Below the pieces are notes generated by a model. That model saw nothing but the letters and a program-made list of their open reading frames with translations, searched no databases and was not told the DNA's origin. From Cliona cf. orientalis (lineage: Eukaryota; Porifera; Demospongiae; Clionaida; Clionaidae), in NCBI GenBank assembly GCA_963930775.1, contig OZ005699.1:1199501-1263500 (forward strand): a stretch of DNA of 64,000 nt. The letters are read 5' to 3'. Position 1 is the stretch's first letter; the number at the start of each line of letters is the position of its first letter. A program made the position numbers and the translations under genes. Below are positions 2,274 to 48,219 of this stretch, piece after piece.

Positions 2274-3391
2274 AATGGCGGCCGCTGTAGGCGTTAGTGA
2301 TCTGTTGGCTTCTGCCTTTTCTTCAACTCTTGGATCCACCGTCGTCACCTACGACCAGTACCAAAAGGATAAAGATGATGAAAAAGACGAACCTGTATAT
2401 TACCAAGCGCTAGATGTTGATCAGCTGTTCGTCGCTAGCAATTTGTGAAGTTGGAGAGCAGAGAGATACCACCTCATTACCGGCATCGGTGCCACGTGAA
2501 GTTGGAGAGAGACAGAGAGATACCACCTCATTATCGGCACCAGTGCCACGTGAAAGCGAGGACCCCGCAAATCGGGTCCCCCGTCTGGTACCACAGACTC
2601 CGCAGTCTGAGCTCTATATCAAGACACTTACAGGGAAAACCATCATACTTTCGTATAATGCTAGTGATACCGTTGAAGATGTAAAAGCGAAGATACAAGA
2701 CAAGGACGGAATTCCCCCCGATCAGCAAAGGTTGATTTTCGCTGGTAAACAACTACAAGATGGTCGAACTCTTTCAGATTACAACATTCAGCGGGAGAGT
2801 ACGCTCCATATGGTGCTTAGGTTCCGTGGCGGTGGCATACCCACCTTTTATATTGACGATTCCCTTCTGGATTCTAAGTTCGATTATGACTTCACCAAGA
2901 AAGGCAACGATGGGAAAAAGTACTATAGAGGAGGGTATCAGTATCAGCGACCGTACGGGTGGAAACGCTATGCCATCAAAGTCCTTGGACGATTTGAGAA
3001 CGACGAGTGGCTAGGAGAGCAAGGTCAGAGGTTCGAGTCCTCAAAAGGGGAGTGGCCTGTATCTTATCACGGTACCGGAAAGAGTGCCACTGGTAGCATT
3101 GCGCAGGATGGTTACCTGTTGAGCAAGGGGAAACGATTCAAATTTGGTAGAGGGATATACTCCACTCCATCTATCGAAGTTGCTTCGAAATATGCGCAGA
3201 AGTTTGAGCACGAGGGAAAGGAATACAAGATTGTGTTTCAGAATCGAGTTTGCCCCGACAATTTGGCAATCATTGACGCAAAAACAACGGGAGTCGGTGA
3301 GTACTGGGTGCAGCCTCGCCAGGATCTCATTCGACCCTATGGAATATGCATAAAAGATCTCAATAGTAATGATTCATGCCTTATCTTGTGA
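2274..3391 (+). pseudogene. Ubiquitin-ADP-ribosyltransferase fusion, copy 1, with N-terminal frameshift
   Basis: This is the paralogue of the intact copy at 3735-4706. It starts at ATG 2274 ([13 protein letters not shown]) and stops at TGA 2446-2448, because about 4 bases present in copy 2 (cggg after TTGTG) are missing. The rest continues open in another frame, reaching back to ATG 2414 and ending at TGA 3389-3391. That frame encodes two 17-18 residue tandem repeats ([17 protein letters not shown] and [18 protein letters not shown]), a ubiquitin domain from about 2610, ending RFRGG, then the full ART-like domain. The H-Y-E residues are kept: [13 protein letters not shown] and GEYWVQP. Either the gene is a recent pseudogene, or the downstream frame is translated from ATG 2414, which overlaps the short frame by 35 bases. 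A 45-bp intron would be needed to repair the frame, which is unlikely. The intact domains argue for recent or continuing selection. Confidence 0.72.
2445..2549 (+). repeat. Two-unit tandem repeat (51 + 54 bp) inside ubiquitin-ART copy 1
   Basis: Units 2445-2495 and 2496-2549 both begin GTGAAGTTGGAGAG and run to GTGCCAC. The second carries a 3-bp insertion, so frame is kept. Copy 2 has no second unit, so the duplication arose after the gene duplication. It sits next to the frameshift. Confidence 0.9.
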
Positions 3392-3734
3392 CTGCAGTCC
3401 TTATTGCTGCTTCTTACATTTATGACTCTTGATCATGAGCATGTCTACATGTGCTATATGCATACAGTTATTGTAATGTTATTATGTATTAAAGCTGCAC
3501 AGTGTGATAAAATGTAAGGAAAGTCCACTGAAAAGAAGTTAGCCGCACAATATGCAGCCCCACATTCCAGCGGTGTTGAGCGGAAAGTCCCCACTATCCA
3601 AGTACAAGTAGTATCGCGTGCGCGCCTGCTGACGACCTTTACCTGGATATGAAGGAGTGCGCGCGAGCGCGAGCATGCGCTATATGCATGGCTAGCCAGC
3701 ACCAGCACGTGGCCTGACACTTCTCACGATCACG
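3392..3734. promoter_or_regulatory. Intergenic/promoter region between the two ubiquitin-ART genes
   Basis: No coding potential was recognised. The 100 bp before ATG 3735 are GC-rich with alternating purine-pyrimidine (GTGCGCGCGAGCGCGAGCAT around 3658), as before copy 1, so a duplicated promoter is plausible but not shown. Confidence 0.45.
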
Positions 3735-4706
3735 ATGGCAGCTGCTGTAGGTGTGAGTGACCTGTTGGCTTCTGCCTTTTCTTCCACGCTTGGATCCACA
3801 GTCGTCACCTACGACCAGTACGAAAAAGATAAAGACGATGGTTATTACCAAGCGCTTGATATTGATCAGCTTTTCGTGGCTAGTCACTTGTGCGGGAAAT
3901 TTGGGGAGCGGATCAGGGAGACCACAGCGTCATCGACGGAGCAGTTTGATCTCTATATCAAGACACTTACAGGGCAAACCTACACACTTGAATCCGTTAC
4001 GAGCAATGATACCATTGCAAATTTAAAGGAAATGCTACACGACGTAGAAGGAACTCCCCCGGACCAGCAAAGGCTGATTTTCGCCGGTAAACAACTAGAA
4101 GATGGTCTAAAGATAGCCGACTACAACATTCAACGAGAAAGCACCATCCATTTGGTGCTAAGGTTGCGTGGCGGTGGGATGCCTACTTATTATGTTGACG
4201 GTTCTCTTCTGGACTCCAGATTCGATTACGACTTTACGAGGAGAGTCGATGATGGGAAGAAGTATTACAGAGGAGGGTACCTATATCAACGACCGTACGG
4301 GTGGAAACGCTACGCAATCAAAGTCCTTGGACGGTTTGAGAACGACGAGTGGCTAGGAGAGCAAGGTCAGAGGTTTGAGTCCTCAAAAGGGGAGTGGCCC
4401 GTGTCTTACCACGGTACCGGTGAGAGTGCCACTGGTTCTATCGCACAGGATGGGTACATGCTCAGCAAGGGGAAGAGATTCTTATTCGGTCGAGGAATCT
4501 ACTCTACTCCGTCGATTGAAGTGGCTTCAAAATACGCAACAAGATTTGAGCACAAAGGCAAAAGGTATAAGATTGTCTTTCAGAACCGGGTTTGCCCGAA
4601 TGATTTGGTGGTCATCGATGAAGAGACCACGGGTGTAGGGGAGTACTGGGTACAGCCGCGTGACAAAATGATTCGACCCTATGGTATTTGCATTAAAGAG
4701 TTTTAA
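3735..4706 (+). CDS. Ubiquitin-ADP-ribosyltransferase (PARP-like, H-Y-E) fusion protein, copy 2, intact
   Basis: Single exon, 323 aa. Residues 1-71 are a leader shared with copy 1 ([13 protein letters not shown]; a DQYEKDKDD segment). Residues 72-147 are a ubiquitin domain: LYIKTLTG, then [17 protein letters not shown], then DYNIQRES, ending RLRGG. The Arg of QQRL (ubiquitin R42) and the lysine of AGKQ (K48) are kept. The K11, K29, K33 and K63 positions read Q, M, V and R. The domain is followed by another Gly and MPTYY, so a deubiquitinase could in principle cut after RGG. Residues 150-323 look like a PARP-type ART fold: His226 in YHGTG, Tyr256 in GRGIYSTP (compare PARP GKGIY) and Glu303 in GEYWV (compare PARP NEYIV). 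These would be the NAD-binding and catalytic H-Y-E. From memory, unannotated proteins of this layout occur in sponges and glomeromycete fungi. Substrate unknown; cytosolic by lack of a signal peptide. Confidence 0.88.
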
Positions 4707-5426: not shown

Positions 5427-8400
5427 TTATCTCATGTTTAAGTGCACAAGAAGGATGCTCAAAATGGTGACCAGCACCAAGTCAATGCTTGCCAAAGGCC
5501 GAGCTGCCGAGTAGATGTGACCAGGAGGCCTTGGTCTCTCCGTGCGAACAGGCACTGGTACATCTTTCAGCGTTGCAGTCTGTACTGTGGCTGCTACCAT
5601 GTGAGAGAGGTAAGGATCGGACGCCAGCATCGGAGTCTGATTGTTGATGAATGTGGCCAACTTGACAGCCTCTTGGTTGCATGTACCAATCTATTAAAAG
5701 GAATTTGGAAGATACCATTACAATCACGCCTGCCCCCCCCCCTCCCAGAAATTTAATCTCTATATCCTCCCTATTACAACCAACTTACCAAGAGATCCAA
5801 TGATGAGTTGAGTGTTGGAAGAACGAGAAGAGATAAGGAGCCATCCAGAGAGTAGTGTCCATACAAGTTACACTGCAGCTGTATGTATAGCATAGGGTTT
5901 TTTTTGTTTTTTTTTTGTATATAATAATTTCTGATGCTGATATCAGGAGTGACTTTGTTAACATCAGCTCTCCCTCGTTCTCACATGAATCACTCATGCA
6001 TGCACAGCTTTATACTTACCGAACTAATGTGATATCGTAATCGCTTAATTATGTCGACTGATGACAGAAACTGCAACCCAAGTGCGTGAATATTCCTCTG
6101 CATTATCTCATTGTCCATTAGAACTGTCAAGTATCCACCTATAGAATCATGCAAGTAAAAAAAAAAAAAGAATCATGTAATTAGACCTATCGTACTTATC
6201 TCATACGTGATGGCCATATATTATCCAGATATTACAGATTCCACAAGAAGTAAAACTACTATATATCTACAATGTCATACGTACCACACTTGGGGCAGCA
6301 GGCATCCCAGGGAGTGACTCCAATACAACCAGCGTAGGGCAAAGCAGGACAGGTCACACCAGCACATGATTTACCATCTGAACCTGTAGGGGGATGCATA
6401 CTATATAGATCATCGTACAATCTCGTAGCTACGAGTGACTTTGTGTTATATAGAGAGGGAGGGGGGAGAGATGGAGAGAAAGGGGGAACAGGGAGAGGGA
6501 GAGGGAGGGGGAGGGAGGGAGGGAGAGTTGCATGATTGTGCACATTATATACCTGATCCTGCTGGTACGGCCTTGCAGTGTCCATAGTAGTCGACTGCCA
6601 CGTAGTCGCTGTCGGAGTGACACTCTGTGGGGAAACTCTCTCCGTTCACTCCACAGACTTGCTTTGATCTTGATCTTGAACACTCGGGCTACAGGATACA
6701 ATATCACAAAATTAATAATAATTATTAACATAATATCATAATATTATTATAGTAACATTTCTCAGCATTGAATCAGATCTGGACATGTCTACCTTTACTA
6801 TTGGATCATCACCATAGAGCCAGATCATCGATTGGTTCAGTACTTTGGTCGGTCCTTCTAGGACTAGGCCTCTCCTCCCAAATTAAAAATTTTATTCTAT
6901 GGGAGTACTTTGTCAACGTCGTACGTACCTTGCAGTAGCCGAGGTAGTCCAGGTTGCTGTGTGTTCGTAGGAAGCTGCAGAGACTCGTGTGGGAGGACTC
7001 AGAGTTGTCACAAACTGGATTAGAGTATGCATCACAGTTGTCCTGGTTCACTGTAGTGAGAGAGAGGGAGGAAAAAGTATCAATATTGCCTACAATGTTT
7101 AAGGCTAGCTACCATAATATCATTGTATTATAAATCTGGAAAATTCTGATTATCAGTTATGTATAAACACGATGCAGGGCAATTCCTAATGATTTTTCAG
7201 CACAAAAATTGCCATGTAAAAGTTTCATAACATGCCCAATAATTTTCGTTAAATCTATTGAGCATACCACAAGTGTACTGCTTGCACTCCACAGAAGTAG
7301 ATGAGTTAGAAAAGCAGATTTTTCTTGACGGCAGGCAACTATCTCCCACACCACACCTGCTGCTGGTTCCAAACCCTGATGCACAAGGATTGCCAGCTCG
7401 GCAGTCTTGTCCAGTAGAGTACTCCCCTCGACCATATCCCATGCATCTGTGATGAGAACAATAAGTATGCGTTACATTCCCTCTCTCTCCCTCTCTTTCT
7501 CTCTCTCTCTCTCTCCCTCCCCCTTCCTCTCTCTCTCTCTCACTCACTTGGCAAAGCATGAGTTGGGTAGAGTCCTGCCATCCACAGTACAGACGGGTGA
7601 ATAATCACCAGAGCAGTCAGAACAGTTATCTATAAATAAAAAAAATTGATTCACCGATGAACAATTATTTATCCTAGAAGAGCGTGTGAAAAGGAGACTT
7701 ACGTGTAGGTTGGTCACCCAAGCATCGTCGATTGGTACAGACCTGGCGTCCATGAGAGCAGGCACAGAAATTACAGTCGTTATGAAAGTGAGAGCCATGA
7801 GCTGCAAGAAATATATTAATTAATGTACCGTGAAGGTATCACACACAATGTTCAAAAGGTTAATTTGTAACTTAGGGCGACCAATACCCTCAATTATCAA
7901 ATGTAAATGTCAGGAACGCTTGGATGTCTAGCCTAAAGTACTGGCTTTCAACCAAATTAGTGAAGTTGGTAGCATAACGATTTCAAATTTGTAGCCATAC
8001 CATGTAGCTATACATATTCTCACCTTTCATTTCTCCGTCAACCATACATGTGCTTCCGCCCTCGCAGTGGTTATGGACAGGTTGAAATCCCCCAGACAGT
8101 GCCGTTCCCCCTATAGCTGCCGGAATTTCATCACCTCCCCCCGTTCTCCCTTCCATACCCTGTCTCACGATGGAACAGTTGAAGTAACCATAGCAACTTC
8201 GACTAGAGTCGGTGATGAGGTTGACGCGAACGCCACTGTCTTCGGGCACGACGAAACTCGGACGATCGCCGATGATGCAGCCTGGTTGACAGCTGAACGA
8301 TGTGCAGCCTTGCTCTCGTGTTTGACACTTGTGGTTGATGGCACAAAAGTAGCCCTCAGCACAGGGATTAGGATCGCAGGGATTTTCGATGACAAGAGCT

Positions 8401-11400
8401 GCTTTGTAAGAGACTGGACTAGGCTCTAAGAAGGAGAGAGATGAGGATCAAGGGCCAGGGGGTAGAGTGAGAAGAGAAAGAGAGAGAGAGAGAGAGGGAG
8501 AAGTCAAGAGAGAGAAATAGAGAGTAGAGATGACTGAATTAATCACACTGCGCGACTCAAGAGAACTCACTCAGATATTCACTGATTGAGATACAGTATT
8601 TCTCGGTGTTGGCAGGAGCAATGATATCACACACTGCTTGAGGTGCCACATCAGAGTTACTGCAGTTGGACAGCAGCTTGAGACAGTCCTTCCTGTAGAG
8701 TAAAAATTTAATAGAAAGTGCAGCTAATATACATGGAATAATGAAACACAGCTATATACTAGCCTGCAGATTTGTGTGATGTGAGTTGTCGGGTGACATG
8801 GCTGGATGTGGGTGATACAAGCAACAGCCTGCATAGTAAAATTAAATATATAGTACATTTCAGCTTGTGAGGTGAAATTTGGTGCTGCTGATCATGATTA
8901 TGCAGACTTGTCACAGATAATAATACGGCAATGTAGACCCATTTCCAACATGCAAACTCAAAAGCTAGCTATAGGTGAAACTAGAAGTCTGAGGATCGGA
9001 TGAGGCTGTGTAATCTTATATTAACCAACCTTCCACATTTCTGGCAGACAACTCTCAACATTGCTGACGAAGAGCGTATAGAGAGGGTGTTGGACCACAC
9101 CGGTCCTGATCCAGTTGTAGAAACTGTTCTTGGCCATCCTATCTGCAGCATTGTTGCACTGACGGAAGGACTCAGATGGCCTGTGTAAAAAAGAAGATAA
9201 AATTTGAGGTAGAGTCATCACTAGCTAAAAAGCAAGCCATCAATGTACTCAACTGAGATGTATGATTGAAAGCTGAAAAGTATGATCAAAATTTCCATAA
9301 TAATTATTACATCCGCACATAATTCTAGCTATGGTATTGCATAGTTTCCACAAGGCGAGTCACACGTATGTGCAATTTTGCCAAAAGTTGCATATTACCG
9401 TGATGCACAACAATAAATTAATGCTGACCTGTTGTTAAAGTTGGTACAGAATGTGAGCTGGTCTTGAGGGTTGGGTCCAGTGCAGCCGAGCTTGCAGGGG
9501 GAGCTCACTGCAGAGTAATCATCAAACTGTCAATAAGTGGCCCATTCCCCCAGTTTTTCAATGATTATTGCTCGCTAAAAAGCTAAAAATAATGGGCCTA
9601 TCGACTTAGTATATGAACTGACAAATGGAGTGGGAGGGATCATAAGGTGTGGCTTACCGTCGGCCATACAGGTGGACAGTCGACTCTGTATCAATAGAAA
9701 AAAAAAGATTGTAAACTATGTCTTACTGAATATTATTAATAATTACCATACCTCACTAGGTCGATGAATGCAGTCCAGTTGAAAAGTAGACCAGGAGCTT
9801 GAGGAAACTAGTCGACCAGTGTACAGCTATTGGTAGTGGCGTGTGTGTGTATGTGTGTGTGAGTGTATGAGGTGGAGATATAGGAAGATGGTACGAGTGT
9901 GCATGAGACTGTGGGCATTGTACAATGCGTTGTCAGTGCTAACAGCGCAGGTGGGTGTGTGTATGTATGTACATGACAAACTTACATCCAAACAGCTTTC
10001 TCTGCAGACTTGATCAGAAGCTTTGTTACAGCACTGTACTCTAGCCCAGTCAGCATCTGTATAGAAGGAAAGCAGTATACTGAGTAAAATTTAATAATAC
10101 CAGGCCTTTACGTGTTTTCAATGCTTCATACAAAGTTTAAGTAGCTAAAACTGTCAGCTTACGTGGTGGTTGTTTAGGGATTGCACTAGGATCTTCAGTA
10201 GCTGAAAATGAAAGCAACAAAACAAAATGAATTTACTACCATGATGTATAGGGTAGAGTAGCAGGGCTATGTAGATTAATGATTTCTTACGTGTTTCTGT
10301 TGGAAGAGGAGCCAGCACACAGGGCCAAAATGGACTGGGCTGTTGGTGTGTGCATTATTAGTTTATTAGTGTGCATAGTGAATGAGTGTGTTGTTCTGAG
10401 TGCACTTATTGTGCAAGTGGCTATAGGCAATAAGTCCTCTCCTTGTACGTATGTGCATACAATCAAGTACAATATTATTATTATTAATGTAGACAAGTAT
10501 GATAATTGATGAGTTTTCGTACCGGTAATGCCACCACACTTCCACAGGCTGCAGTTAACTGTGTAATGAACTGCTGCCAAGGTTCATCTGCTGCTAAGTG
10601 CTGTAGGGAGGAAATATTATTAATAATAATTCCACTAATTATTTAATAGTGGTTACATACAGTTTGACACTCTTCTTGACAGGTGTTAGAGATTCCTTCA
10701 ACGGAGCAACAGTGGTAGTCTACAAAAGAATGGGTATGCATTCATATCATGCCATGTATTCAGACCCTTTTAATCATCTCTTGGTTAGATCAGGAGGAGC
10801 TTTTTGGTAAGAAACTTACAGGGAGATCTTGGAGGGACTGTTGGTACAATCTCTGCAGCAAAAGAAAAAAATTAATAATGTATACCTTCTATCGAAATAG
10901 TAGTAATGCTTACCATTAGTAATATTGACATTTGAGTTAACACAAGTCCAGAAGCTCGTCTGTAAAAAATGCCATCAATAACTATTGCTAAATTGTCTAA
11001 TTTCACACATTAATTATTGTTTAGACTTTTGTGGCTAGGCTTACATAAAGCAGTGGTGAACAGGCACTGCTCATAGCTTGAAGCTGAAGTGATGTAATCT
11101 CATTTGACTCTCCAGATCCCAATGCCTGGTGATGGCGAGAAAAAGTGAACAATATTATTATTAACAATCTCGTACAGGAAATCCTCACGCTCTCCCCACC
11201 CGGTATTCATTTTACTTTCAACAGCTAACAATTACATGTAATAATTATTGTGTGTTGACACCACAACTGCCAATTTTATCCGGTGCATGCTGAATACTCA
11301 ATCACACGTATACATAATTGCAATGTCATATTATCTCCCACTAGCTCACACTGTGCAGAGTGTGCGTGTCATGTGATTGAGTTAACAGCTGTAGAACAAA

Positions 11401-32329: not shown

Positions 32330-35009
32330 TCATTTTGGTTGTGCATGTGCAGTGGAGTATGCCAGGTTGTTTTCCAGATCAATATCTTTGTTAACTTGGT
32401 CCAAATCTTCATAAATAACAGGTGGTACCGGTTCAGTAGCTACAGGCCTAGGATTCATACTTGTACAATCCAGCTTCTCCACGCACCTTTTCTTTGCTCT
32501 CAGCCTCACAACGGTGATTGTAATGTGGATAATAACTGAAATAGCCAATATCACTGTTGTGATGGTAACTCCGAGTGATATTACCAGTATCGTGTGATCT
32601 GTAATTATTCATTTCAAATGCAGGTTGAGTGACTGTTAGTATATAATAGCTAAGCTATGCTGCACAATGATGTAATCCGAGAGCCATATTATCATATTAT
32701 TATTATTGTGGGTGGCTAGTGCATGACCTATCCCCCTACCCAGCCCCTGAATTTCTCTCCTTCAATGGCTCACCTTCTATTGTACTTGCGCCATCTAGCT
32801 TAGAAGCTGTGTCTAGTGTTCCCTCAATCTCCGCTACAAATGTTCCACTTGTCAAAGTAGCTATGAAGCAGTTGATTGGCTCCTTATTTGGCAATGATAC
32901 AAGGCCAATTATCACAGAATCCGAGTGTGTGCTTGTCACTAAGCTTGAAATAGTCTTTGTGGAATTCCAAATCCTACATTCAGTTCCAGGGCCATACATA
33001 ATTCTGCATGTTTTTTCATTTCTCATATCGGGATCATCAAAGTAACAGATTACTCGCTTTGAAGATAGGTCAAAGGATACACTGACATTGATAGAGTAGG
33101 CTATGATATCAAAAATTTTACAAGTTTAAAAAATTTAATGATGTGACGTCACAGTGCTGTACACTTACTTATTATTGTAACAATACTGGATGTGTACCCA
33201 TTTCTGAGTAAGTTTGTAGAAAGCACTGTTGCATTGTAAACATTTGAAGTGGAACAAATTGAAGAAGAGTTTGCATCGAATACATGTCTGCAGATCCCAG
33301 AATTGCATAAGGAAGCTGGCATGATAGCTGATCCACAAACGCTGCCTGAGTTGCCATCAGCATAGGTGAGAGTATAGGAGAGAGTAGAGCCATCTATCTC
33401 ATCAGTTATATTGAAAGTTGACTTAAGAATAAGAAAATTTAATAATAACGTTATTATAGTGAAATAATAAACTTTTAATATTGGGATTATTGAATTTCAA
33501 TGAATCACATTGTATATTTATGCTTGACACCTCTGATCATGAGTCAGCAGTTTGCATTAAGTAAATATTATAGCGGGAAACTTTCAAGGGAGAAAACTTT
33601 CGTGGAATATGTAAACTGATTGCATAAATGAATGTGACATGCCTAAAATTTTGTGGAGAAAACTTTCGTGAAATTTGTTTAATTTCTCCCTCGAAAGTTT
33701 TTCGCTATATGGTACCCATCCACTTTCACTTTACCACTTCACTGTTAAATTCCACTGTTATCCCTGAAAAATGACCACTACTGTAAGAGTACCGTGGAAT
33801 AACTTTGAGTCCTGTTGGAGCATCTGGAACTAGATTGATCATCATATGAGTAAGTAACCATGATAATAACTAGCTATTACTCTTATACCTCTCAGTAGTG
33901 CAAGAAGTGGATCACTCACATTGCCTGCAACACCGTCACAGACTAGTGTCTGGACAGCAAATGTACACATGTTATTGCTGTTTGTGGGTACATTAGTACA
34001 TACTGCCGTCAGATGGGCTGTGGTGGTGGGACATCTACCACAGTTTGATGCTATGATTCTATAGTGAACAACATCACAAGTAGTGACCACTTCATTCCAA
34101 CTGAAGATGAGCCAGCCTGAGCGATCTAGTGACAGCATAATTCTATCTGGAGGAGGTACAGGACCTGTATTAGCATCAGAACGTTAATACTTGCTGCATG
34201 CAGCCAGTTTCAAGTGCAGGAGCTTGAAACACCCAATCCATCACAGATTACTTTACAGGTCATGCATGATTGATTAGTATAGTAATAGAACAAATTCATA
34301 GGTAATCAATATTCTGTGTATACAAGGTCATTATTATCAACAATATCATGCCTTTATCATTCTATAATGCATCAAAATAATCAACGATGTCACTGGCTTG
34401 CATGCAGATACCAGTATTATTATTGTAGTAGCTAATCGCCTTTGATTATGAGTGCACGCAGGTAAGCTTCATACGTGTATTTGGTCTGTGATAATTTAAC
34501 TACCTTTTAGTTTCACTTTAGACATGCCAATTATTGTCAACGGCTGAGTCCCACTGTCATAAGCACATTCTATACTGTGTCCATCCAAATCTCGGCTAAT
34601 TGTGACGTCGAGTTGTGATGTGTAGCTGCCATTTTCAGCCCTAAGACTGCTGCCAATCAGAGTTCCACCATTGCAGGTTCCATAAGTACCTTGCGTAAAC
34701 TGGCTATGCAGTAGGGCAATATAGTCACAATTCAAGATCATAAAAGCGTTTCCTTGCCACAGAGTAGTTCCTATTCCTATGATGGTACATTCATAGCGAA
34801 GAATGTCCCCAGGGCATAGACATGATGTATTTGATGCTGGATACATATTATTACTTTGAATTCTGGCTTCAGAGTCTATTTGCACAATAAGCCAAAAAAG
34901 TAGATAATAAAGACTTAGTATATAATTATAGCTACAGCTAAATACCTGCAAATATGCTGTTCATGATCAGACACAGCAAATCTAAGATCAGCAGGACGTT
35001 AATAGACAT
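32330..35009 (-). CDS. Type I membrane protein, Ig/FN3-like ectodomain, short tail with ITIM-like motif
   Basis: Seven exons in phase, 551 aa: 34946-35009, 34504-34875, 33889-34164, 33735-33829, 33169-33421, 32774-33100, 32330-32598. Signal peptide MSINVLLILDLLCLI. An Ig-like module follows (CLCPGDILRYEC, W 13 residues on, IECAYDSG). Next is an FN3-like module (VPPPDRIMLS, LIFSWNEV, HYRIIASNCGRCP), a second one split over two exons (VPDAPTGLKV, TLSYTLTYADG), and a further cysteine-bearing module (YSINVSVSF, RIMYGPGTEC). One membrane segment (ILVISLGVTITTVILAISV) is followed by about 65 cytoplasmic residues with VIYEDL (fits the V/I-x-Y-x-x-L ITIM pattern) and LAYSTA. No exact family was recognised. 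It is paralogous, exon by exon, to the gene at 38338-43567, with which it forms a divergent pair. Likely a cell-surface recognition receptor; ligand unknown. Confidence 0.83.
33567..33716. mobile_element. MITE with GCGGGAAA/TTTCGAGG ends, in an intron
   Basis: The left arm TATAGCGGGAAACTTTCAAG and right arm CTCGAAAGTTTTTCGCTATA are inverted. It ends in the ATGGTA motif shared with other copies at 35270-35370, 36025-36100 and 40960-41024. Confidence 0.75.
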
Positions 35010-38337: not shown

Positions 38338-41300
38338 ATGTCACTGACAATATTTACTATTCTTATCATGGTAGGGAGCTTTCAAATCTGTGGTGAGATA
38401 TATACATAGCATCCAATATAATAATTCTAATCATTATTATTATGCTTCAAATTAAATAGCCTCTACTATCACAAGGTTTACAAGAATAAACCCCACTACA
38501 TGTGTTTGCCCTGGAGACACTTTAACATACGAGTGTGTCACTACTGGACCAATAGCTACGGTTTGGACAGGAACTAGTTTCGTGGGGTGTGCTTCTGAGG
38601 GCAATCAGATCCTGTTGTCTCATGGCTCGTTTATAACTGAACTCAGTGCTTCAAAAACTCGAGAGTGTAATGATGGCTCAGTTTCTGCCCAAGGAATCGA
38701 CATTACCGATGGTCAATGTTACAGGTCACTCCTAAATGTCACGGTTGACCCTCTCTTTAATAATTCGGACGTAATGTGTGCTCATCATGCTGCTGATGGT
38801 ACTCAGAAAGAAATCGGAAACTCAACAATTCATATATCAGGTAGCTTAATGAGGGGGCTTTCTATATACTCACCTTTCACCCCAAATAGGTGAAGTTACT
38901 ATAGGATTCCCATCATCTCCCCCCCCCCCCCCCCCCCCCCCCCCCGGGCCTCCCAAAGAAATTTGTATAACTCATAGCTGTAGCTAGCTATAATAATGGG
39001 ATTCTGTGTATATAATATGCAATACTCTAGCTAATTGACCACGCATGTCCCACATTTCCAGTGCATGCATATTTTCTCAAATTCTTTACATTATATTCAA
39101 CGTAACTTTCTACTAAAATCAGGCCCACCAGAGCCAGCTGTGGTTTACCTGATGGATGCCAACTCAACTCATCTTACTTTTGCTGTACAGAGTCCAGTGA
39201 TTCCCAACTGTTCACACATAAGGTATAGTGTTGAAGCATCTAGTAACTGTGGCAGCTGTCCTGAAAGCACTAACTCAACCACTATAATCTGCTCTAACTT
39301 CACTACATCTGTTGATACCAACAATACATGCAACTTAACTGTTGGTGGTATCATCTGTGACAACATACCAGGAGAAAAGGCTTCCTTACTTATTATTCTG
39401 AAAGGTTGGTCAATAATAATAATATTTAATTTATATTAATTGTCATGCTGGTATGCTCTGAAATTCCATCCTACTAATATTGCAGTTCCAAATGCTCCAT
39501 TTATTAAATCTCAACCTATATATTTGCAAGAGCGTCCAGGAATTTTAGCAGAATTAACTACATCCTTTAATATAACTGTGAGTTATGCATGACATTGTAC
39601 GATATATTATAGCTAACTGTATTCCGTTCATGCACGATTGCATTTGCAAGCCTGATTGTTTACTCGTCATTCATCAACTCATCAAACGCTTGGAGCCAAT
39701 GGTCCATGGCAAATAATTATGGTACTATTATATCTTACAGGATACTTTCAACATTTCAGACGCTGTTAATGGTTCAGCAATCAATTACACAATCATCTAC
39801 TCCAATTCCACTTCAGGCAAAAGCTGTAGCTCGATTACCATTCCTGCTAGTTCGTGTGTGAATGGGATTTGTAGCCATCTGTTTGATGTCCTGTCATCAT
39901 CAGATTGTCCCGCTTCAGCAAACATCACCACTACTGTATTTGGTACTAATGTATTTGGAAACGGACCCTTGTCAAATCCAACCACATCAGGTTATTATGT
40001 AGTACGATAATAGTATAGTATATTAATTTGTGGGAGAATTAAAAATTTTTTGAGCAAGTATAAGGCATGCATATATGGTGAAATTTCCCTTTGGTAAAAA
40101 TTTCAGCTATACTACAAGATGCAATTAATAGGCTGGTGTTGATTAGAGACTACCATACGACCAGAAATTTTTTAGGGATCCAATTTTTGTGGAAGGCCCA
40201 TCTTAACAGTGAACTGGTATACTATTGAATTCCAAATTAAAATATATTATCAAAATATGTTATGAATGCATGGGCAACCTTTAAAGCATGGTCAAACCAT
40301 AGTTAGACTCTAGCTGTCACAAATACTGTGATTTGATTGGTTAAAAACAAGGGTTCTAAGTTACTTAGAAACCCTCTACTTAGAATCCCTCTACTTAGAA
40401 ACCCTCTACTTAGAAAGCTAGTTCCTTAGGCAATAACATACAAAGTGTTACTAAGCAACAGCATGCTAGAGTCTAAACAAGTTAGACACCTCAGCCAATG
40501 GGATCTACAGTCTTTAGAATACTTCAGACACTTATAAAACCCTCAGGCTTCGCCTTCGGGATTTTATATCAGTGTCTTCAGTATTCTAAATCCTGTAGAT
40601 ACCTTGGCTTCAGTGTCTAACTTACATTTAGTAGAAGGTCAAACTTGTTACAAATCTAATGCTGACAGTGCATTCGCATTTGACAATATATAGGCTTGAC
40701 ATTGCATTTGCATTGCGTTGACCATACATTTACACTATAGATTTCGAACATGCCTTGAAGGTTTGCCCATGCATTCATAACATATTTGACAATGTATTTC
40801 AGTTTCAAATTGGTATTATTGTCAGCTTTGGAATTCCATAGTAAACCAGCGGTTCAGATTGATCCAGCAGCAGCATGCACCGTGATAGCCACGCCCCCTA
40901 TTATCGCGCGTGCATGTGTGTCGATGTCATGAGAACGTGTGTTTAGCATTTCACAGATTTAATTTTCATGGATCGCCAGTCAACCACGAAAATTGGCTCC
41001 CTCGAAAATTTCCAGCCATACGATAATTTAGCTAGGCAATTGAGGGGTAGGGAGAGAGGGGCACAAATATCCGTGCCTCAGTTGTTGAGCAGATTTCCAA
41101 ACATTATGAAGCCTATGAGTTTTCTGAACACAATGCATACACTATATACCATCAAAATGATAGATGGCATCAATAAGCTTGTCCGTGTAAGTTTTGATTC
41201 AGCAACAAATAGACTCAGATGTATATTCTCAAGTCTTCCAAACGATGTTCTAAAGCAGTGCACCGCTAGCATTACATATGGAATAAACTGTGATCAGCAA

Positions 41301-43567
41301 TTTTCAGATTTGTACAGCAATGAGAGTACTGGTGAATTTGTGACCATACCTCCACTAGAACTGATGAGTGATGTCACTGAATATTGTTTCATTGTTACTG
41401 CAAGTAGCAATAATTTGACTGCTACTGTAAGGGGCATATTCTTCGCCATTGACACTACTAAAATGAATGGTGATTATATATATATACTCTAACTCATTGT
41501 AGCCAAATTACTTCATTATAATAATTATGCATTAATTTTTGCCACTTTTACTTTAGCTACAAGTGACAAGGGAACTGATTCAGAAGAGGCTCGCTCAATG
41601 ATTATTGTAATAATTCTCCCTGTATTGGCTGTGCTATTCCTAATTGCTATATCAGTGGCAATATCATTGTACCTGTATGTGATCAATCATCTGCGGATCC
41701 ATGAATACACCATTGAAATCGAGATAAAGAATGACATTGCATCTGTCATTAAGGCACTTGAAGTATTTGAGGTAATACCTATAATGATGACAAGTAATCT
41801 ATAATGCATGATAACCATAATACGTATACTATAAATTAAATATTATAGGAATTGAAGATCAATATCCGTGGTTTCAACACATACTTACGTCACAAGGATT
41901 TTAAACGCCAGGATCCTGATCTACCTGGGTACAGTATTTATTATGTATACTGTGAATGTTCTACTGATTATAGACAAACTCTCGAAGAGGATTTGCGCAA
42001 GGAACTTATTCCAGAACGTGGCACTATTCCAAATTTGGCTAAGAAATTTGCAGTGAAAGATACCAATTATGGTGAATATTACTATATAAGTTAACTACCA
42101 GATGTATTGTGTATAATATTACTATAATATAGGCCCTGGCAGATTATAGCTATACCAGCATAATTTCGAGCAAAAGATATAGATAATTATAATTATGCTG
42201 GAAAATAGGCCCAGTTAAAACAAAAAAAATATAGGTACAATTTCTCACCTTCGCAACATACATCCAGTCTAAGGCATATTATTATAAGCATTACCATCAC
42301 CCATTAGATTCTGAACTTAGCTGATTAATTTTGCGGTTGATGTAGACTAAGTATAGATACACTGTCAGTGGTCCTTGGAACCAACACCCCACAATAATAA
42401 TATTTTTTTCCTGACTATAACATATTAATTTTGCTTTAGTAATAATAATATTATTGCAGGAATAGGCGAAAATAAAATTATAGTTGAAATCAAATTTCCA
42501 GTTAAGGATGAAGTTGGTTGTCTTTGTAGAGCACTGCGTACCTTACAGGTAACAATACTTACTATCATTCTTAATTGGGTACGGTAATTGTGCATTATCA
42601 TACAATGGCAATGTATATTATTAGCGTGATGAAGGAATTAAAGTTGTTGGAATCAACACTGGATCTGTCTGGGAGTCGGACGAGTATCACTACCACCATG
42701 TCAAATTCTCATGTTCAAGGATGCAGAAAAAAAGGATCAATAACAAACTTAATGAGAAAAAAATAAGTGTTAAAAGGGGTACATAATCACTAGCTATAAT
42801 AGGAAATGCTTTGATCATAGCAATAATAATTATCATAATAATTATACAGTCATAGGACAAGCAAGAGTGGATGAACGTTCCACACAAGCAATTGAACTCT
42901 ATGTTCCAAATACACCAGGAAATCTTGCAAGTGCCTTGTGTGCATTTGATACATACGTAAGTTAATGTAGTTGCATGACAATAACTATATTATATGCAAT
43001 AACTTTCTTTATAGGAACTGAATATCACGAGTATCAATGAGCTACAGCCTAGGCCTGCAGGTGCAGAAGATGGATACCGAAATATCCTTGTGAAATGCAG
43101 CTGTACTAATGATAACCAAGCAAGACTTAAAACCAAACTGGAGAAACATGATGCACGAAATGTAGAAATCACATCGATGGGTGACAACTGTACAGTTACC
43201 TACTCTGTTGGGGATATGCAAGGATCACTCTATAAATCACTAAAAGGATTTAAGGTGCAGACCATAATATTGATACTGTAGCAAGCATGGCATACTGTCA
43301 CGTTTCTTTGGCATGATGCATGCACTTTAAAAAATATTGTAGGAATGTGAAGTTAATATTATCGCCATTACTTCCTCCACTGATGGGGCACAAAATATCG
43401 AGTATCAAAAAAATTACATAGTATTTGAATCAACTAATGAAGAAAAAGTACAACTTATAGAACATATTCAAAGTATCAACCGTGCCTTCGTTGTTAAAAG
43501 ATCAAGTATGCCGTTGAGTATGCACAATCTGCGTACGGATGCAGCAGCTTCAACAGAAACAGACTGA
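38338..43567 (+). CDS. Type I membrane receptor: Ig/FN3-like ectodomain, one TM helix, four tandem ACT-like cytoplasmic domains
   Basis: Thirteen exons in phase, 870 aa: 38338-38392, 38460-38840, 39123-39404, 39486-39577, 39741-39990, 41164-41469, 41557-41771, 41849-42071, 42460-42548, 42625-42778, 42856-42956, 43015-43254, 43343-43567. Signal peptide MSLTIFTILIMVGSFQI. The ectodomain (about 20-465) is paralogous to the gene at 32330-35009 (CVCPGDTLTYEC; EASSNCGSCP). TM about 470-498. The tail has four units of beta-alpha-beta-beta-alpha-beta pattern: EYTIEIEI..IKALEVFE/ELKINIRGFN; IVEIKFPVKDEVGCLCRALR; AIELYVPNTPGNLASAL, then ELNITSINELQPRP and ILVKCSC; and CTVTYSVGDMQGSLYKSL, then ECEVNIIAI. 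These resemble the ACT domain of phenylalanine hydroxylase and prephenate dehydratase (PG-x-L in the first loop, 'N-I/L-T-x-I' strand). ACT domains bind amino acids or dimerise. The ACT reading is by eye and needs profile or structure support. No known receptor with this layout comes to mind. Confidence 0.82.
38919..38945. repeat. Run of 27 C
   Basis: Uninterrupted poly-C in the intron after exon 38460-38840. Similar runs are at 45380-45399 (20), 49779-49794 (16), 54933-54953 (21) and 61434-61455 (22), with 23 G at 2224-2246. Confidence 0.95.
40498..40625. mobile_element. Small palindromic repeat (CCCTCAGGCTTC core), copy 2
   Basis: GGGATCTACAGTCTTTAGAA faces TTCTAAATCCTGTAGATACC; the core is CCCTCAGGCTTCGCCTTCGG. 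It is better preserved than the copy at 36528-36675. Lies in the 1.17-kb intron of the ACT-tailed receptor. Confidence 0.75.
40960..41024. mobile_element. Partial MITE end (CTCGAAAATTTCCAGCCATA)
   Basis: ATGGATCGCCAGTCAACCAC then CTCGAAAATTTCCAGCCATACGATA, similar to the right ends at 51800-51852 and 36060-36100. It is intronic. The long frame beginning at 40968 starts inside this repeat, so the true exon starts at 41164. Confidence 0.6.
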
Positions 43568-46405: not shown

Positions 46406-47596
46406 CTAAGCGGGGCACATTAGCCTCAATTTTATCACTGTCAAATATTTTCCATTGCATATTTCATTGCCGGCGTCGGCTGTTACTTCAAATTCAGCTC
46501 CCGCTGGATAAAGTGCTTCTTCTTCCGCAAACTCATTGAGATCGTGGTCTACATGGTCAAGATCTCGAGGGCGCCAAAATGCCGTGCCAGGTGTGTCGTT
46601 AGAGATTTCGAAAAGAACATTACGAGCAAATCTTTCTATGGCTATCTCTCTGTTCTTTGATGAAGAAACAAAGTTCAGCCAGACAAACCGGGTGTTCTTT
46701 GTGTACTTCTTGATGTCACTATCCTTCAAATACCCCCCACGGTAGGTTTTGGTGCTTACGCGAGTAAGCTCCATCCAATAAAATAGTAGCACATCGAGAA
46801 AGAGGGAGAAAGGACCCAGTGCTAGATCATCTGCCGTTGGCCTATAACGGCGACCATCATTGGTTGGAATGCTCTGTCGACGGAGTGACTCGTTTACTTG
46901 ATGATAAACATGATCCTTTGAGTAGAGCTTGATGGTTCGTGCAAAGAAACGTTGCTCGTCAGTAGTACCATGTGATTGCACATCTTCTGAAAGGAAATCT
47001 GCAGCTTCCTTGTCGAATGCACCAATGCTGGAGCATATTTTTTGCATGGCATGTTTCCAATTAGATCCTTCAATTTCGAACTGAAACGTTTGTTTCAAAA
47101 TTTGTTTGAAAGCCGTACCCACATCGATTTTAGACGGATGGAACACTTTCTTATAGCTTGCAAGTGTAAGAACTAGCAATGATGGCCCCACTCGGTCAAT
47201 TTTCCTACCTTCCTGGTAGGTTATGCAGGTCGGAATTTCACCTCCAAATCTCTCATTTCTCTTGTTTGTGTGGAACCCGAGAAGGAGATCCGCAATTTTT
47301 TGATTTCCTTTGATTATCCTGGCAATCCATTCAGGAGTTTTTCCAGGACCGCTTTCACTCCGGCCTCGCTTTGTCTTTATCTCCGAATCACAAGTTGGAT
47401 ACTGGTAAAGTAGCTTCACTACAGCATCTTCATTCTGCCACCATGCTGCTTGGTGCAGTACCCCCCAGACCCTATCCTCTGGGATGCAGTTGATTAAGTT
47501 CGGTTTGCGATCAAGGATAAGGAATACTTCTTCCCATTGCCCATATTTCGCACTTGCTACCAATTGGCTAACATCGTGTGCATCTTCATCGACCAT
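46406..47596 (-). CDS. R-S-E type mono-ADP-ribosyltransferase with an ankyrin-like N-terminal region
   Basis: Single exon, 396 aa. Residues 10-110 look like two degenerate ankyrin-type helical repeats (DVSQLVASAKYGQWEEVFL; GVLHQAAWWQNEDAVVKLL; PEWIARIIKGNQKIADLLL). Residues about 210-390 resemble the vertebrate-type arginine ART fold: LYSKDHVYHQVNESLR, then PFSLFLDVLL, Arg286 in TYRGGYL, the Ser motif FVSSSKN (311-313) and the E-x-E segment EEEALYPAGAEFEV (358-360; compare EEEVLIPPFEVF of ecto-ARTs). This would transfer ADP-ribose from NAD+, probably to arginine. It has neither signal peptide nor GPI signal, so it should act inside the cell. The lack of introns in an intron-rich region suggests retroposition or transfer. 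It lies tail to head between the dead duplication and FMNL. The family call is by motif; the target is unknown. Confidence 0.78.
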   Translation of the reverse strand: MVDEDAHDVSQLVASAKYGQWEEVFLILDRKPNLINCIPEDRVWGVLHQAAWWQNEDAVVKLLYQYPTCDSEIKTKRGRSESGPGKTPEWIARIIKGNQKIADLLLGFHTNKRNERFGGEIPTCITYQEGRKIDRVGPSLLVLTLASYKKVFHPSKIDVGTAFKQILKQTFQFEIEGSNWKHAMQKICSSIGAFDKEAADFLSEDVQSHGTTDEQRFFARTIKLYSKDHVYHQVNESLRRQSIPTNDGRRYRPTADDLALGPFSLFLDVLLFYWMELTRVSTKTYRGGYLKDSDIKKYTKNTRFVWLNFVSSSKNREIAIERFARNVLFEISNDTPGTAFWRPRDLDHVDHDLNEFAEEEALYPAGAEFEVTADAGNEICNGKYLTVIKLRLMCPA

Positions 47597-48219
47597 GGCT
47601 ACTGATGGTAGAATAGATAGATCTGCAGCTTGACTAATTTCTCTCTCTCTAGCTCTCTAATGGAAAAACAATAATTATCGTAGCTCTGGTTCAACTGTTA
47701 TACAAGGTTATCACTGCATGCATGCATGAAAGGTTTTGGTTGGCTGTATAGCTGGTAACAAGGGCTATAAGCCATTGGTGGTATTAAAGGTGGTTTCCAA
47801 AGATTATCTGATAGGATTGTGGTGCACCTGTACAAGATCAGGATAGCCTTGGCATGCAAGCTCTCCACAACAGGAGTACACTCTTGTTCACACTAATGTA
47901 GACTATTGACAGCGTGTGGATAGAAAAGTCCTAATAGCAGAACAGTGCAGCAGCTCAGGAGCGCTGCATAGAGGAAAGGAGCTCGAACACCCCCTCCTAC
48001 ATATAATATTATAGTCGACAATAATGATTACCTTAATTAGCTTTCTGGCACTGATAATAAAAATCTGCCCAGCGATGTATGCATACAATGCATGGATAAT
48101 AATGATATTATACATGAGATGATGAGGATCATTGAACAACAAAAAAAACACAAATCAATGTTGAGATGAAAAATAATCATAATAATAATTATGCACAGAT
48201 GAAGGAAAAAAAAACCTTG
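47597..48219. other. Intergenic spacer between the ART gene and the FMNL 3' end
   Basis: Should hold the ART promoter (just above 47596). AT-rich, with TAATAATAATTATG-type runs. Nothing else recognised. Confidence 0.55.

Follow-up and report, generated by a model that had tools for sequence, protein, structure and literature searches.

To our knowledge, the ACT domains of animals occur only in soluble proteins. The aromatic amino acid hydroxylases (AAAHs), whose members serve in tyrosine and serotonin synthesis and include the tryptophan hydroxylases TPH2 and TPH1 and phenylalanine hydroxylase (PAH), carry a single ACT domain with an ESR motif in a soluble enzyme that also has a catalytic domain. 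In PAH, phenylalanine binds between two ACT folds that lie side by side and causes them to dimerise, with a site composed of the motifs ExVxAL, YxF and NLTIxS (passages of PMC4822156). Tandem ACT domains without an enzyme are found in the plant ACR proteins (PMC3173338), and TRADD-N, an intracellular domain with an ACT-like fold, occurs in expanded, lineage-specific receptors and adaptors of marine invertebrates (passages of PMC8195603). The gene described here lies in a 64,000-nucleotide stretch of the genome of the sponge Cliona cf. orientalis (contig OZ005699.1, positions 1,199,501 to 1,263,500, forward strand), the whole of which is referred to as the window. Its predicted product combines an ectodomain and a single transmembrane (TM) helix with a cytoplasmic tail of four ACT units of the AAAH type, and it appears to be one of at least seven ACT-tailed loci in a receptor family with related ectodomain modules and interchangeable tails.

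The gene occupies window positions 38338-43567 on the plus strand and comprises 13 exons, with GT-AG boundaries at all 12 introns and a reading frame that is kept throughout, giving a product of 870 amino acids (aa). The protein is made up of a signal peptide, four cysteine-containing modules (D1 to D4), one TM helix and four ACT-like units, as follows (ORF, open reading frame; bit scores are those of a profile of 26 units without the window sequences).

38338..38392, plus strand: exon 1, signal peptide (MSLTIFTILIMVGSFQIC); hydrophobic N-terminus, donor gtgag
38460..38840, plus strand: exon 2, ectodomain module D1, seven Cys, phase-1 introns on both sides; homologues at window 34867 (minus strand) and in the paralogues
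39123..39404, plus strand: exon 3, ectodomain module D2, six Cys, phase 1-1; weak FN3 resemblance
39486..39990, plus strand: exons 4-5 (39486-39577, 39741-39990), ectodomain module D3, FN3-like by eye
41164..41469, plus strand: exon 6, juxtamembrane module D4, phase 1-1; start from paralogue homology
41557..41771, plus strand: exon 7, TM helix (aa 470-496) and beta1-alpha1 of ACT unit 1 in one frame; ORF 41493-41804
41703..42025, plus strand: ACT unit 1 (41703-41771, 41849-42025), phase-0 intron after helix 1; 55.6 bits
42480..42777, plus strand: ACT unit 2, exons 9 and 10 (42460-42548, 42625-42778), phase-0 intron after helix 1; 45.2 bits
42882..43170, plus strand: ACT unit 3, exon 11 (42856-42956) and the first part of exon 12 (43015-43254), phase-0 intron after helix 1; 51.8 bits; Pfam ACT under the cut-off
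43186..43501, plus strand: ACT unit 4, the last part of exon 12 and exon 13 (43343-43567), phase-0 intron after helix 1; 44.2 bits

The ectodomain of 450 residues contains 21 cysteines and 18 N-glycosylation sequons, and the tail of 374 residues contains two sequons. The helix at aa 470-496 is the only strongly hydrophobic one, and it runs into the first strand and helix of ACT unit 1 uninterrupted in one frame. An initial annotation, made from the sequence alone, had described thirteen exons, a TM exon at 41557-41771 and a tail at residues 500-870, and the same coordinates and the 870-aa product were recovered; its signal peptide and single TM helix correspond to the hydrophobic N-terminus and to the helix at aa 470-496. 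It had also named, as grounds for refutation, transcripts in which the TM exon is not spliced to the repeats; this does not refute the architecture, because that exon itself holds the first half of unit 1. An alternative start of exon 6 at 40957 (40957-41469) was rejected in favour of 41164-41469, as the paralogues begin D4 at the corresponding GxN motif; the Pfam scan of the window protein was run on the model with the longer exon. As judged from its sequence, the product is very probably a single-pass membrane protein with a tail of ACT units.

At least six further ACT-tailed loci, on contigs C3, C1, C10 (two), C5 and C18, are present in the same genome (216.8-Mb assembly, 149 contigs; the locus lists from the genome searches are lower bounds). 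First and second halves of the ACT domain alternate in the family loci, which contain seven paired units in L015 (C1), five in L016, five in L037 and one in L014, together with five paired units and a further partial set downstream in L017, and two paired units and four unpaired halves in L018. The modules D1-D2-D3-D4 stand in the same order in six of the seven loci, the remaining one, L014, having only D3 and D4 found in the locus. Sequences of the window and of several paralogues went into the half-domain and D1-D4 profiles, and matches of these profiles to the same sequences are circular in part. In all seven loci, a single open frame covers the TM helix together with the first half of ACT unit 1, which makes the link between them independent of splice prediction, and in L014 the whole first ACT unit follows the TM helix without an intron. 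Over 395 ACT codons, the two C10 paralogues differ by 0.495 synonymous changes per synonymous site (dS) and 0.153 nonsynonymous changes per nonsynonymous site (dN); the ratio dN/dS of 0.31 indicates that the ACT array has been kept by selection in that pair. On the minus strand of L017, ACT exons similar to units 3, 4 and 5 form a second, incomplete set at 7170-8717, downstream of the five-unit array; this set may be a shortened duplicate or an alternative C-terminus.

The assignment of the tail to the ACT family is weak by single sequence and strong by profile. The 26-unit profile, built from 26 of the 27 units outside the window, recognizes four units in order in the tail with a total of 194.9 bits, compared with a best score of 11.0 bits among 2000 shuffled tails (1620 of the 2000 were reported at all), in agreement with the four tandem ACT-like units of the initial annotation. 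A profile of the four window units alone matches PDB chains of TPH2 (E = 1.2e-7 and 1.8e-6), TPH1 (1e-4) and PAH (2.3e-3 to 9.4e-3), with the first unrelated chain at E = 0.26. For a profile of 28 of the 31 paired units in the family (L017 units 5, 6 and 7 left out; six unpaired halves are in no set), TPH2 is again the best PDB match (1.5e-9), places 1-11 are all AAAH chains, and mostly chains of aspartokinase, prephenate dehydratase and the acetolactate synthase small subunit follow. The first clearly unrelated chain is ribosomal L7/L12 (E = 0.29), and the two chains above it without an ACT name, 2f06 ('conserved hypothetical', 0.019) and AcuB (0.15), presumably contain ACT domains. At E ≤ 1, Pfam ACT matches 22 of the 28 units, the best of them at 1.3e-9, other ACT families also give matches, and the NCBIfam model of phenylalanine 4-monooxygenase matches 19; one paralogue unit, at 30.7 bits, is over the Pfam ACT cut-off. 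Aligned by hhalign with the ACT domains of the genome's own AAAHs, the family units reach 97.9% (5.9e-13) and the window units 96.6% (6.9e-10).

Two sets of observations count against this assignment. Searched as a single sequence, the window protein reaches 25.9 bits with Pfam ACT, under the gathering score of 27, and its phmmer search of the PDB gives tryptophan hydroxylases at E = 0.6 to 0.8 only; among the units taken singly, unit 3 matches ACT under the cut-off, unit 2 only DUF316, also under the cut-off, and unit 4 only Biopterin_H (17.6 bits, cut-off 22.7), and no Pfam family was matched by unit 1. In a tree of the units (35 rows, with strong support for 10 of the 32 inner branches), those of the window are divergent and sit on long branches of 1.27 to 1.61 changes per column, and the AAAH domains of the genome group with domains from contig C4 (support 96/87). 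The ACT search suggested in the initial annotation gives a divided result, as the profiles reach the AAAH ACT domains (1.2e-7) and the single sequence stays below the Pfam cut-off; the likeness to the AAAH type that it had noticed is borne out by the lead of AAAH chains in both PDB profile searches. Taking the profile matches together, the tail is confirmed as four predicted ACT units of the AAAH type. No catalytic domain follows them in the window protein, which ends after unit 4.

On contig C4, L039 (C4:4961000-4970900, plus strand) and L040 (C4:3033000-3042900, minus strand) contain several ACT-like units by eye and share the split after helix 1; the one unit tested matches Pfam ACT at 2.5e-4, under the cut-off. 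No TM helix was noticed in either locus, for which the upstream exons were not worked out, and the two are perhaps soluble animal ACT-repeat proteins.

The exon structure of the units also resembles that of the hydroxylases. A phase-0 GT donor stands exactly after helix 1 in 29 of 32 first halves, lies six bases further on in two, and is missing in one (L014). The PAH-type gene of the same genome (C13; 35.6 bits with ACT, and 76 and 93 bits with Biopterin_H for two pieces) is interrupted after the same residue and in the same phase as the receptor units (...ALKPFE|ELGINMTHIES...), and we take intron 2 of human PAH to lie at the corresponding position, after helix 1. In the window gene, D1, D2, D3, D4 and ACT unit 2 are each flanked by phase-1 introns, and a phase-1 intron is also present at the end of unit 1 and at the start of unit 3; there is no intron between the TM helix and unit 1, nor between units 3 and 4. 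Symmetrical phase-1 modules of this kind suit exon shuffling and tandem duplication. As the simplest history, we infer that ACT exons of a hydroxylase gene were captured by a receptor gene and then duplicated, for which the unit tree is too weak to serve as proof. In the region C13:537600-549400 (minus strand; L038 and L066), three tandem AAAH genes or copies are present, with the intron after ACT helix 1 kept in one and missing in two.

The residues at the positions of the PAH ligand site were compared in 30 receptor units (the set also used in the tree, with the shortened L017 unit 6 left out). Gly at G46, Leu at L48 and Asn at N61 are each kept in 26 of 30, so that the glycine and leucine of the beta1 loop and the asparagine of beta2 are held in common with the AAAHs; the position of I65 is aliphatic or Phe in 30/30, and that of E43 is Asp in 21. 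The receptor units are read as having retained the pairing surface and the pocket, with an altered specificity. This suggests a single-pass receptor whose ACT array would serve as an assembly module, with a small ligand favouring pairing, and we give this reading a probability of roughly 0.55. The ectodomain would respond to a surface cue, and ACT units, of the same chain or of two receptors, would come together as side-by-side pairs. An amino acid of the cytosol, or a small molecule related to one, would favour the paired state, and in this way the array would determine the threshold at which the receptor, or a partner bound to it, clusters. Among these steps, pairing through ACT contacts is somewhat favoured, and gating of the receptor by an amino acid is plausible at a more tentative level; small-molecule sensing and clustering, the two roles that the initial annotation had proposed for the tail, are thus both hypothetical.

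Several features of the same alignment speak against a ligand site of the known type. The ESR motif on beta2 was not found in the receptor units: the E66 position, the Glu of the motif, is Asn in 26/30, and the H64 position is Gly in 18/30. Tyr77-x-Phe79 is not kept either, in a part of the alignment that is gappy near 77-79, and the glycine of the beta1-alpha1 loop, present in three of the four window units, is missing from unit 1. Since the Glu of ESR is replaced by Asn and Tyr-x-Phe is not kept, any ligand of these units is unlikely to be phenylalanine bound in the manner of PAH. The same losses at E66, H64, Y77 and F79 would fit a protein-binding scaffold that has given up amino-acid binding and acts through ACT-ACT or ACT-partner contacts independently of any ligand, for which TRADD-N, an ACT-like fold that recruits TRAF2, offers a precedent (passages of PMC8195603). 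Set against such a scaffold are the loop Gly, the Leu and the Asn, each kept in 26/30, and the uniformity of the Asn at E66, which makes the position look like a changed site and not like decay; we regard the scaffold as rather unlikely, though it is the alternative that survives best.

The position of the ACT array within the protein can be compared with that of other tails in the same genome. Modules like D4 were found at 63 places (E ≤ 10). At C10:7649k, D4 and a TM helix are followed by a tyrosine kinase (Pfam kinase 1e-10 and 4.5e-11 on two pieces), and the D4 of this gene shares 51% identity with the D4 of the ACT-tailed locus on C3; a second D4 place, at C10 7668k, has kinase exons at a similar distance, as deduced from the places of the matches. 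Scoring in the two kinase searches covered 119 of the 2511 candidates in one and 150 of the 1498 in the other, so that two kinase-tailed cases are claimed, of which one was read. These receptor tyrosine kinases thus have D4 in common with the ACT-tailed receptors (and a TM helix, in the case of 7649k), whereas the 7649k gene carries a kinase tail in place of ACT units; in the window protein no kinase domain was matched by Pfam. On C3, D1-D3 and a TM helix are followed by a Death domain over the Pfam cut-off. Also on C10, L042 and L043 (C10:7596401-7606300 and 7624001-7633999) form a cluster of D1-D3 receptor genes with very similar short tails bearing tyrosine motifs of the YEE(I/V) and TAYTC types. 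In the window itself, a sister gene lies head to head with the ACT-tailed gene (exon joins of the sister genes being deduced from order and strand):

32333..34960, minus strand: D1-D2-D3-D4, then a TM helix and a short tail bearing the motifs VIYEDL and LAYSTA; no ACT units

The motifs VIYEDL and LAYSTA may resemble immunoreceptor tyrosine motifs, and the two genes possibly form a paired-receptor arrangement. L016, L037 and L041 contain divergent D1 pairs as well; the available sequence upstream of L015, L017 and L018 showed none.

As the sisters carry kinase, Death or tyrosine-motif tails after related modules, the ACT array occupies the position of an output module. The modules held in common and the close linkage, seen in the head-to-head pair of the window and in the C10 cluster (two ACT-tailed loci and two kinase-tailed ones, one of the latter read and one deduced from the places of matches), would also suit a decoy or modulator that has its ectodomain ligand in common with the kinase-, Death- or tyrosine-motif-tailed sisters, sends no signal of its own and holds the ACT array as a passive, stable tail. 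A passive tail, however, should not need four to seven maintained units under purifying selection (dN/dS of 0.31, one pair) with conserved loop residues, and this explanation is improbable.

A further alternative takes the units for TRADD-N, or for some other ferredoxin-like domain that has expanded in sponges, and not for ACT domains. It is suggested by the 357 NCOA6-clade TRADD-N proteins of Amphimedon, with their ACT-like fold (passages of PMC8195603), and was rejected as hardly credible, as AAAH ACT domains lead the PDB lists, the intron is common to the PAH-type gene of the genome, and the 28 units together match 25 Pfam families at E ≤ 1, none of which is TRADD-N. A splicing artefact, in which the exons of an ACT-repeat gene were wrongly joined to a neighbouring receptor gene, was likewise rejected and is most improbable given the frame common to the TM helix and beta1-alpha1 in 7/7 loci and the whole unit behind the TM helix in L014.

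The identity of the ectodomain modules is less distinct. The initial annotation had called them Ig and FN3-like; cysteine-containing modules are indeed present, and the two labels, unconfirmed by Pfam, stand as a resemblance only. No Pfam match to Ig or fn3 was obtained for the window protein or its modules, and one of six D3 modules gave a weak fn3 match (E = 0.19). Against the PDB, the D2 profile has three matches, to fibronectin and titin chains (E about 1), the D4 profile a single match, to a nanobody (E = 0.036), and the D3 profile none.

The described case that comes nearest in spirit is the expansion of TRADD-N in Amphimedon and bivalves, which concerns a different domain, of another family and usually accompanied by Death-like domains (passages of PMC8195603). 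The plant ACR arrays belong to another lineage than the window receptor, and independent origins of the two arrays are likely. Shuffling of extracellular domains is described among tyrosine kinase receptors (passages of PMC8662651), of which the exchange of tails in this genome would be the mirror image. Among the matches listed, no receptor with ACT domains was found in open-licence PMC full text (subscription papers are mostly uncovered), in line with the view of the initial annotation that no receptor of this kind had been described. We know of no combination of an ectodomain with a TM helix in plant ACR proteins.

The predicted architecture extends the known range of modular single-pass receptors, and would form a new category only if gating by a ligand were shown. 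With that reserve, a class of metabolite-gated animal receptors is tentatively proposed, as one branch of an expanded ectodomain family whose other members would signal through kinase, Death or tyrosine-motif tails. Exon shuffling would have brought the ACT array of this branch from phenylalanine hydroxylase, the array would act as the output module, and one polypeptide would combine surface recognition with the internal amino-acid state. A receptor family with an ACT cytoplasmic module, which appears to go back to exons for the regulatory part of a metabolic enzyme, would newly join surface recognition to metabolism, and the family illustrates how a receptor lineage may swap whole output modules while the ectodomain is retained.

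Elsewhere in the window, an open frame of 416 codons at 46406-47656 (minus strand) has no Pfam match at E ≤ 0.1, and an ankyrin/ART-like label for it was withdrawn on that ground. At 2414-3391 and 3696-4706 (plus strand), two tandem ORFs each encode a ubiquitin domain (8.3e-28 and 9.9e-25) followed by a sub-threshold PARP-like part (E about 0.01).

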